40,155 nucleotides of DNA from Candidatus Nanopelagicales bacterium. Its GTDB lineage: Bacteria; Actinomycetota; Actinomycetes; S36-B12; CAIYMF01. The translations under genes and the position numbers were made by a program. Numbering within the stretch: the stretch's first letter is position 1; every line of letters starts with the position of its first letter. The notes beneath the pieces were generated by a model. That model had not been told where the DNA came from, did not search any database, and saw only the letters and a program-made list of their open reading frames with translations. Where the stretch lies: assembly GCA_025456065.1 (NCBI GenBank), contig JALOLH010000007.1, positions 1 through 40,155 on the forward strand, in the 5' to 3' direction. Of this stretch, positions 25,951 to 29,163 are shown piece by piece.

Positions 25951-26066
25951 GCCGGTGAGTCTAGTGCGGCGCGCCACGCCTGCCCCCGCCGCGGCCAGCG
26001 TGGGTCCGGCACGCCGGCCGGGGGCTCGCGATGGCCATCGCCGGTGCGCGCGCCTACCGTGTCGGC

Positions 26067-26453
26067 ATGCCCGCCCGCGCCCTGGTCGTGAAGTGCACCA
26101 CCGTCGAGCCCGAACCGTGCTCCCAGGCGTTCACGGTGGCGGCGACGGCCCTGGCCGCCGGGGCGCCGGTCTCGCTGTGGCTCACCGGCGACGCGACGTT
26201 CCTCGCGACGCCGGGGCGCGCCGAGTCGGTCGCGCTGGCGCACGCGGCGCCGCTGGCCGAGCTGCGCGACGCGGTCCTGGCCGACGGCACCGTGACGGTC
26301 TGCACCCAGTGCGCCGTCCGGCGCGGGCTGGGCCAGGACGACCTGCTGCCGGGGGTCCGCATCGCCGGCGCGGCCTCGTTCGTCGACGAGGTGCTGGCCG
26401 AGGGCGCGCAGGCGCTGGTGTACGGGGCCGGTGGCGTGGCCCCCGCCGGCTAG
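26067..26453 (+). CDS. DsrE family-like protein
   Basis: ALVVKCTTVEPEPCSQAFTVAATALAAGAPVSLWLTGDATFLA...CTQCAVRRGLGQDDLLPGVRIAGAASFVDEVL; TACCGT-N6-ATG. Confidence 0.75.
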   Translation: MPARALVVKCTTVEPEPCSQAFTVAATALAAGAPVSLWLTGDATFLATPGRAESVALAHAAPLAELRDAVLADGTVTVCTQCAVRRGLGQDDLLPGVRIAGAASFVDEVLAEGAQALVYGAGGVAPAG

Positions 26454-27507: not shown

Positions 27508-28083
27508 TCAGGCCCGGCGCAGGCGCTGGGCGCGCAGGTACAACTCGCAGCCGATGCAGAAGTCGAAGGCGGCGTTGAGGAACGCCGCTGCGAGGGCGGC
27601 CGCGATCGCGGCGAGCGCCAGCCACGACAGGCCCAGGGCGAAGCCGGCGAGGCCGACCAGGCTGAACGCGAGGCCGCACGCCTGCGCGAAGCGCGGCGCC
27701 GCCGGGTCCTCGAGGTGGTCCGGGGCCGCCAGGCGCGGGCGGACCAGGCGCTTGAACACCAGGCCGTACGGCTGGTGCGCCGGCCCGGCGAGGGCGCCGA
27801 TCGCGAACACCAGGGCCTGCAGCGCCAACAGGACCGGGGAGGCCAGCACCAGTGCGGCGGCCAGGACGACGGTGGTGACGGCGGCGCCGAAGCGGGGACC
27901 GCGCGGGTCGATGGCGGCGGACGGGGTGCGAGCGGCGCCAGCGGCCGGGGCGGTGCTGCCCGCGGCCGGGGCGGTGCTGCCCGCGGCCGGGGCGGTGCTG
28001 GCCGCAGCCGGGGCGGTGCTGGCCGCAGCCGGGGCGGTGCTGCCCGCGGCCGGGGCGGTGGTGGTCGGGGCGTCAGGGGACAC
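27508..28083 (-). CDS. DUF4395 domain membrane protein with Ala/Pro repeat N-terminus
   Basis: IDPRGPRFGAAVTTVVLAAALVL...GLVFKRLVRPRLAAPDHLEDPAAPRFAQACGLAFSLVGL...AAFDFCIGCELYLRAQRL; GTG start 28081-28083 preferred over the long read-through ORF. Confidence 0.88.
   Translation of the reverse strand: MSPDAPTTTAPAAGSTAPAAASTAPAAASTAPAAGSTAPAAGSTAPAAGAARTPSAAIDPRGPRFGAAVTTVVLAAALVLASPVLLALQALVFAIGALAGPAHQPYGLVFKRLVRPRLAAPDHLEDPAAPRFAQACGLAFSLVGLAGFALGLSWLALAAIAAALAAAFLNAAFDFCIGCELYLRAQRLRRA
27940..28065 (-). repeat. 21-bp coding tandem repeat x6 (STAPAA[G/A])
   Basis: CGCGGCCGGGGCGGTGCTGCC-type units of exactly 21 bp. Confidence 0.9.
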
Positions 28084-28135: not shown

Positions 28136-28213
28136 TCAGCGCATGCGACACAGGCAGGTGCTGGTGCGGCCGTGGTCCACGGCCCGCCGCCTCGTGAGGA
28201 GCACCTGCTGCAT
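28136..28213 (-). CDS. Putative cysteine/sulfur-responsive leader peptide (25 aa uORF)
   Basis: Codon-by-codon read: MQQVLLTRRRAVDHGRTSTCLCRMR*; resembles actinobacterial leader peptides of the form LTxRRxVDxxRxxSxxC; TAGCCT-N6-ATG; 52 nt upstream of the DUF4395 GTG. Confidence 0.75.
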   Translation of the reverse strand: MQQVLLTRRRAVDHGRTSTCLCRMR

Positions 28214-28317: not shown

Positions 28318-29163
28318 GTGACCACCGCGAGCCGTGACCGCGCCAGCGCCCGCTCCGCCCGGGCCTCCGAGTCCGACGAGGGCCAGCTGCGCCTGGCCGT
28401 CCTCATCGACGCCGACAACGCCCAGGCGACCGTGATCGAGCAGTTGCTCGCCGAGGTGGCACGCTACGGCGACGCCACGGTCCGGCGGATCTACGGCGAC
28501 TTCACCTCGCCCCACAGCGCGTCCTGGAAGCGCGTCCTGCAGCGCAACGCGATCAAGCCGGTGCAGCAGTTCGCCTACTCCACCGGCAAGAACGCCACCG
28601 ACAGCACGCTGATCATCGACGCGATGGACCTGCTCTACACCGGCAACTTCGACGGCTTCTGCCTGGTCACCAGCGACAGCGACTTCACGGGCCTGGCCAT
28701 GCGGCTGCGCGAGGAGGGCCTCACGGTGCTCGGCTTCGGCGAGCGCAAGACGCCCGAGGCGTTCCGCAACGCCTGCCACCGGTTCGTCTTCGTCGAGGTG
28801 CTGCGCGAGGCGGCCAGCGGCGTGGCCCCCGCCCCGGAGGGGCCCGAGGCCGACCAGCGCGCCGAGGCCCTGCCCAGCGCCGAGGCCAGCCAGGAGCCGC
28901 GGGGCGCCGCGACGGCCGCCCGGCCGAAGCTGCCGAAGAAGTTCGTGCTCTCGGCGTTGGCCCAGTCGGTGGACGACGAGGGCTGGGCCCACGTCGGGAC
29001 GTTCGGCAGCTACCTGAACAAGCTCCAGCCGGACTTCGACCCCCGGCTGTACGGCTACCGCAAGCTCTCGGACCTGATCCGCGCCCGGACCGACCTGTTC
29101 GTCACCGAGGAGCGGCGCGCGCCCGGGGCGAACCAGTCGGCCCTGTACCTGCGCGCGCGCTGA
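28318..29163 (+). CDS. NYN-domain protein with C-terminal OST-HTH/LOTUS-like domain
   Basis: LAVLIDADNAQATVIEQLLAEVARYGDATVRRIYGDF, DSTLIIDAMDLLYTGNFDGFCLVTSDSDFTGLAMRLREEGLTVLGFGERKTPEAFRNAC; C-terminal DDEGWAHVGTFGSYLNKLQPDFDPRLYGYRKLSDLI. Confidence 0.92.
   Translation: MTTASRDRASARSARASESDEGQLRLAVLIDADNAQATVIEQLLAEVARYGDATVRRIYGDFTSPHSASWKRVLQRNAIKPVQQFAYSTGKNATDSTLIIDAMDLLYTGNFDGFCLVTSDSDFTGLAMRLREEGLTVLGFGERKTPEAFRNACHRFVFVEVLREAASGVAPAPEGPEADQRAEALPSAEASQEPRGAATAARPKLPKKFVLSALAQSVDDEGWAHVGTFGSYLNKLQPDFDPRLYGYRKLSDLIRARTDLFVTEERRAPGANQSALYLRAR

Follow-up and report, generated by a model that had tools for sequence, protein, structure and literature searches.

The window analysed here, a 40,155-nucleotide stretch of a Candidatus Nanopelagicales genome (contig JALOLH010000007.1), carries on its minus strand a gene for a DUF4395 protein with a short upstream open reading frame (uORF) before it (Table 1). 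A first-pass annotation of this DNA had described an ATG-initiated ORF six nucleotides behind the hexamer TAGCCT and 52 nt ahead of the DUF4395 start codon, and its coordinates prove exact. It had also noted two Cys codons within the last six residues, and these are indeed present as C-L-C. Among 323 candidates, namely the ATG or GTG starts of ORFs of 15 to 40 residues in the window, this uORF alone combines a TAnnnT element 6 or 7 nt before the start with at least two Cys in the last seven residues. With the Val of the VD motif numbered 0, the peptide has Gly in place of Cys at +3 and contains no contiguous poly-Cys tract.

The DUF4395 protein has a confident, helical predicted model (pLDDT 85), and no solved relative was found by sequence or by fold. 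Its N-terminal extension (window 27925-28071) is encoded by a 21-nt tandem repeat specifying APAA(G/A)ST units. A convergent gene follows DUF4395, and a THAP4-type protein, which also occurs in the mycobacterial neighbourhood of DUF4395, and a Fur-family gene lie nearby. The surroundings further include a DsrE/DsrF-like sulfur-relay protein (26031-26453, plus strand) and, divergent from the leader, a protein with an NYN domain and an OST-HTH/LOTUS domain (28318-29163, plus strand).

Table 1. Positions of the leader, its elements and the associated genes.
Feature	Position	Strand	Remarks
Leader peptide uORF MQQVLLTRRRAVDHGRTSTCLCRMR	28213-28136	minus	ATG start 28213, TGA stop 28138-28136, 25 aa
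-10-like hexamer TAGCCT	28225-28220	minus	6 nt before uORF ATG; predicted leaderless start
Putative sensing codon C+10, TGT	28148-28150	minus	Invariant Cys codon of the leader class
Second Cys codon C+8, TGC	28154-28156	minus	Cys at +8 in 19/55 leaders
Intra-uORF hairpin GGCCGTG-GAC-CACGGCC	28168-28184	minus	Codons -2 to +4 around the VD motif
Shine-Dalgarno GGAG and weak local partner CTCC	28096-28093; 28103-28100	minus	From predicted fold; opening energy 1.7 kcal/mol
DUF4395 protein gene, GTG start (28083)	27508-28083	minus	PF14340, 144.9 bits; invariant C-x-G-C near C-terminus
Second Cys leader MTSAGNATGALVARRHVDLCRMQSCMCRA, L099 (G000:C121)	around 70114-70200	minus	110 nt before nitrite/sulfite reductase (NIR_SIR) gene, on another contig

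The window leader belongs to a class of element that is already known. In 2005 Seliverstov et al. predicted Cys leaders for cys operons of mycobacteria (PMC1262725), and in 2015 a leader occupied by ribosomes was described in front of cysA2/Msmeg_5788 and another leader in front of nirA/Msmeg_4527 (PMC4633059). In M. smegmatis, leaderless uORFs with Cys codons are reported to act as Cys-responsive attenuators of downstream genes (Canestrari 2020, doi 10.1111/mmi.14498; via PMC9031893 and PMC9094748). The closest counterpart is the Ms5788A family (NCBIfam NF042933, leader_Ms5788A; M. smegmatis Ms5788A and the M. tuberculosis uORF upstream of cysA2/Rv0815c), with which the window uORF shares the motif LTKRRAVDLCR, a probable leaderless start, a site directly upstream of DUF4395 or its operon, and UGU at +10 (PMC4633059). 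Unlike Ms5788A, which has about six contiguous Cys and Cys at +3, the window uORF has only two, and no cysA2 and sseC genes follow its DUF4395; it matches the family profile at 29.4 bits (E 4.5e-7), under the curated cut-off of 45. It likewise shows the (R/K)RRxVDxxR core and terminal Cys of cis_reg_atten (NF042934) and scores 18.7 bits (E 1e-3), under that cut-off of 27. An Rfam scan of the window leader at gathering score gave no match. Like the window uORF, the leaders that Seliverstov et al. describe in Mycobacterium and Propionibacterium acnes precede cys operons, lack intrinsic terminators and are short ORFs whose Cys codons lie close to the stop; the accessible part of that text makes no mention of a fixed spacing or a UGU feature and does not name Nanopelagicales among its genomes (PMC1262725). 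The cysS leader uORFC-8-2 of Rhodobacterales is also a ribosome-mediated attenuator with Cys codons, but it is alphaproteobacterial, has an intrinsic terminator and two tandem Cys codons, and uses predominantly UGC (PMC8632094).

Membership in the broader class is indicated by relatives. A DUF4395 search of the window's GTDB family yielded 17 loci in 16 genomes, and 16 of these loci, one in each of the 16 genomes, have a homologous leaderless uORF of 25-27 aa with the form ...LTKRRAVDxCRVxSCxC... upstream of DUF4395. At the remaining locus (L017, G012:C128), where one family genome has its second copy of DUF4395, no leader uORF could be recognised. A same-family orthologue clears both NCBIfam cut-offs; for NF042933, scores reach 46.4 bits for L003, 48.2 in Actinomadura and 56.3 for a poly-Cys mycobacterial leader. 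A wider GTDB genome scan gave 80 named DUF4395 loci, at many of which, across Actinomycetota, a similar leader is present, including mycobacteria with the poly-Cys, Ms5788A-type MSARLEPMLTKRRAVDLCRVAGCCCCCCSC; no recognisable leader was found at many Streptomyces loci of this set. Matches to cis_reg_atten are common, with at least one in 76 of 98 sampled Actinomycetes genomes.

From these searches 61 leaders, 55 of them distinct, were collected as short ORFs with a VD..R motif and TAnnnT before the start; Cys was not part of the rule. The gap between the -10 element and the start codon, for which 4-9 nt were allowed, is 6 nt in 21 leaders, 7 nt in 38 and 8 nt in 2. The first-pass annotation had given the peptide pattern as RRxVDxxRxxS, which fits the family in the form of a core (K/R)RRxVDx(C/G)R followed by an invariant Cys ten codons after V; the search pattern demanded D+1 and R+4, so no invariance is claimed for these two. 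The core is constrained (pN/pS 0.20-0.24, with synonymous sites saturated). Having this homologous core with conserved spacing to the C-terminal Cys, and being co-oriented with and directly upstream of DUF4395, which heads CysA2-type operons in relatives, the window uORF belongs, judged by sequence, to the known Cys leader peptides of actinobacteria, as a divergent representative.

A further regularity of the class concerns a single codon. Cys+10 is present in all 55 distinct DUF4395-linked leaders and is encoded by TGT in every one; among 119 distinct leaders overall, upstream of DUF4395 and other genes, the codon is TGT in 118. At the remaining Cys residues of these peptides, TGC is used 155 times and TGT 44 times (Fisher p about 2e-48 against +10, shared ancestry ignored). 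At loci of at least 65% G+C, the TGT:TGC ratio is 98:1 at +10 and 35:131 at other Cys. The background likewise favours TGC, with 108 TGC to 7 TGT in DUF4395 genes and 28 TGC to 0 TGT in genes of the window. Leaders upstream of sulfite reductase, rhodanese-type sulfurtransferase, solute-binding protein and luciferase-like monooxygenase genes agree on TGT. Retrieval of the leaders that do not precede DUF4395 relied on a position-specific profile with a loose filter for Cys; the DUF4395 set is thus the more reliable basis for judging the fixed +10 position, whereas the choice of codon at +10 is unbiased in both sets. The sole leader with TGC at +10 (VDLCRLGGCCCLCR; L109/L154) carries TGT at +8, to which the control codon may have moved.

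Common ancestry alone is insufficient to account for this invariance, since the rest of the uORF has diverged strongly at synonymous sites (pS about 0.4-0.6), as at the D+1 codon, which is GAC in 31 leaders and GAT in 24. Two RNA-level explanations were considered. Pairing of UGU with the stop-codon region (a GUCG/UGAC hairpin predicted by RNAalifold in relatives) was rejected as a general cause, as UGU stays constant where the identity and distance of the stop codon do not. In L002 and L004, UGU may pair with the downstream Shine-Dalgarno sequence, yet UGU is retained before other genes. UGU persists although the sequence after it is variable in the adjoining codons, in the stop codon and in the linker, which favours a cause at the level of the codon over one at the level of pairing. 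In silico replacement of UGU+10 by UGC shifts the predicted opening energy in some relatives, where effects of UGU on the RNA are accordingly not fully excluded. Bacteria typically read both UGC and UGU with one tRNA-Cys(GCA), UGU by G-U wobble, and the simplest reading is that UGU serves as a slow, charging-sensitive control codon. The invariant UGU at fixed +10 spacing suggests a single sensing codon, perhaps aided by the nascent KRRxVDxxR peptide. Literature searches, which covered Canestrari 2020 through PMC9031893 and PMC9094748, returned no earlier description of the fixed spacing or the UGU codon, and this pairing of fixed Cys+10 spacing with a near-invariant UGU looks to be the new part of the finding.

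The inverted repeat that the first-pass annotation had placed inside the uORF at 28168-28184 lies exactly there and can pair. In DNA it is an 8+8 dyad with a 1-nt centre; a 1-nt loop cannot form in RNA, so the stem would be 7 bp with a 3-nt loop. In 47 of 55 DUF4395-type leaders, codon -1 can pair through its third base with the first base of codon +3; purines stand mostly against T and pyrimidines mostly against G (Fisher p 5e-5, without correction for ancestry). At Ala-1, GCC is avoided although no other Ala codon is as frequent in DUF4395 genes. The dyad is the local form, in the window's genus, of a small predicted hairpin with such pairing-consistent changes, which spans codons -2 to +4 in DUF4395-type leaders. 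The hairpin is absent from most other leader types, which makes it an accessory feature and not a general switch, and the dyad was rejected as a general attenuator hairpin.

The compared genomes directly show a conserved uORF with a leaderless signature, a UGU codon at fixed spacing and the genomic context of both, and on these the main interpretation builds: with a probability of roughly 0.8, the window uORF is a Cys-sensing leader in which a ribosome pause at UGU+10 raises DUF4395 expression through folding of the leader RNA. A leaderless mRNA would start at the ATG of the 25-codon uORF, so that the ribosome would translate it at once. With cysteinyl-tRNA plentiful, the ribosome would pass UGU+10 quickly and terminate at the stop codon; with cysteinyl-tRNA scarce, it would pause with UGU+10 in the A site, and the KRRxVDxxR segment would then lie about 5-12 residues from the peptidyl-transferase centre, up the exit tunnel. 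By its geometry, this position would be comparable to that in known arrest peptides. The paused ribosome would refold the leader RNA and increase production of the DUF4395 protein. That the pause depends on Cys, that the nascent peptide contributes to it and how the signal is read out in the window's genus are inferences. The first-pass proposal, in which ribosomes short of cysteine stall near the C-terminal Cys codons and so control DUF4395, appears right in kind and is partly supported by these comparisons. Its likening of the uORF to short leaders upstream of sulfur-metabolism genes is borne out by the NF042933 match and by operons of relatives, and the conservation that it called for upstream of DUF4395 homologues is found both in the family loci and in the wider leader set.

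In family relatives, the output step is predicted to be translational. A consensus fold of 12 relatives pairs CUCCUG, at codons +7/+8, with the Shine-Dalgarno sequence CAGGAG and contains a hairpin 3ʹ of the stop codon with compensatory changes; an alternative anti-Shine-Dalgarno element, CCUGA, overlaps the stop codon. The anti-Shine-Dalgarno/Shine-Dalgarno helix is paired in 93% of cells in the relatives. A ribosome paused on the uORF tail would remove this pairing and so release the sequestered Shine-Dalgarno: across 13 family relatives, placing the A site at +8 to +10 lowers its mean predicted opening energy from 8.3 kcal/mol to 3.2-3.9 kcal/mol. Compared with their synonymous recodings, natural leaders of the set are on average better sequestered (7.7 versus 5.2 kcal/mol), with exceptions among species. 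The predicted release occurs with any ribosome close to the uORF end, and the switch would therefore depend on dwell time. In the window's genus, the anti-Shine-Dalgarno is changed to ACCUGC and the Shine-Dalgarno to UGGAG or CGGAG. With the ribosome placed at every codon, the switch was not reproduced for the window leader (opening energy 1.7 kcal/mol free, 5.0 stalled), and the whole leader is not more stable than shuffled sequences (z -0.27).

For the window's genus, the main rival for the output step keeps the same sensor and has uORF translation control Rho-dependent, or other, premature termination of transcription instead of access to the Shine-Dalgarno. No intrinsic terminator was found between the window leader and the DUF4395 gene, the linker after the uORF is C-rich and G-poor, the Shine-Dalgarno switch is not predicted in this genus, and Seliverstov et al. 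suggested Rho termination for mycobacterial cys leaders (PMC1262725); however, the predicted, conserved sequestration of the Shine-Dalgarno in 13 relatives of the same family leaves this reading rather unlikely. Improbable by a wider distance is that the uORF merely delivers ribosomes to DUF4395 by reinitiation or coupling, with no regulatory role for Cys: the gap to the next start is short, and reinitiation has been put forward as a way in which leader genes enhance translation downstream of them (PMC4833913), but this would give no reason for the fixed C+10, the invariant UGU or the placement before sulfur genes. Strong amino-acid constraint on the core (pN/pS 0.2) could instead reflect a peptide that is itself functional, such as a metal- or redox-binding microprotein; its variable N- and C-termini, a Cys count ranging from 1 to 8, its invariable location in cis just upstream of another gene and the constraint at a synonymous site make this very improbable. 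Spurious ORFs abound in high G+C DNA, but a chance ORF is refuted by conservation in relatives, the leaderless signature and the family match.

The Cys-sensing leader would not be the only one in this genome. Upstream of the NIR_SIR gene of the same metagenome-assembled genome (MAG), the second leader has TGT at +10 and scores 31.8 bits against cis_reg_atten, above the cut-off that the window uORF misses. It resembles the Ms4527A family (NF042936), which its name and PMC4633059 place upstream of nirA/MSMEG_4527, although it lies elsewhere in the genome from the window and, at 26.7 bits, falls below that family's cut-off of 45. Two sulfur loci of one MAG are thus each preceded by a putative sensor of one kind, a situation also found in M. 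smegmatis. As read from the sequences, Mycobacterium, Actinomadura and Kutzneria have operons of the order uORF-DUF4395-CysA2-type sulfurtransferase, and an SseC-like protein comes next in Mycobacterium and Kutzneria (uORF-DUF4395-CysA2-SseC in mycobacteria). Beside these, the window locus, where the THAP4-type and Fur-family genes still lie close by, suggests a reduced operon, and a role of DUF4395 in sulfur handling is suggested by gene context.

A bolder extension, held tentatively and at a little under even odds, makes the whole actinobacterial Cys-leader class a single-codon sensor. Nascent KRRxVDxxR, at a fixed distance in the exit tunnel, would pause the ribosome at the invariant UGU+10, and wobble decoding by tRNA-Cys would set the cysteine threshold for many sulfur operons. 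Mycobacterial poly-Cys tracts would then be a derived amplification, and the window and its relatives would share a mechanism akin to that of arrest peptides, not simple starvation on a run of Cys codons. The UGU at a fixed distance from the peptide motif (118/119) is a precise and cheaply testable claim that the poly-Cys starvation model does not explain. At the locus itself, a leader type known for cysteine sensing is now seen in an uncultured order of actinobacteria, the Nanopelagicales, and in front of an orphan DUF4395 gene, whose membrane protein product it would tie to sulfur metabolism.
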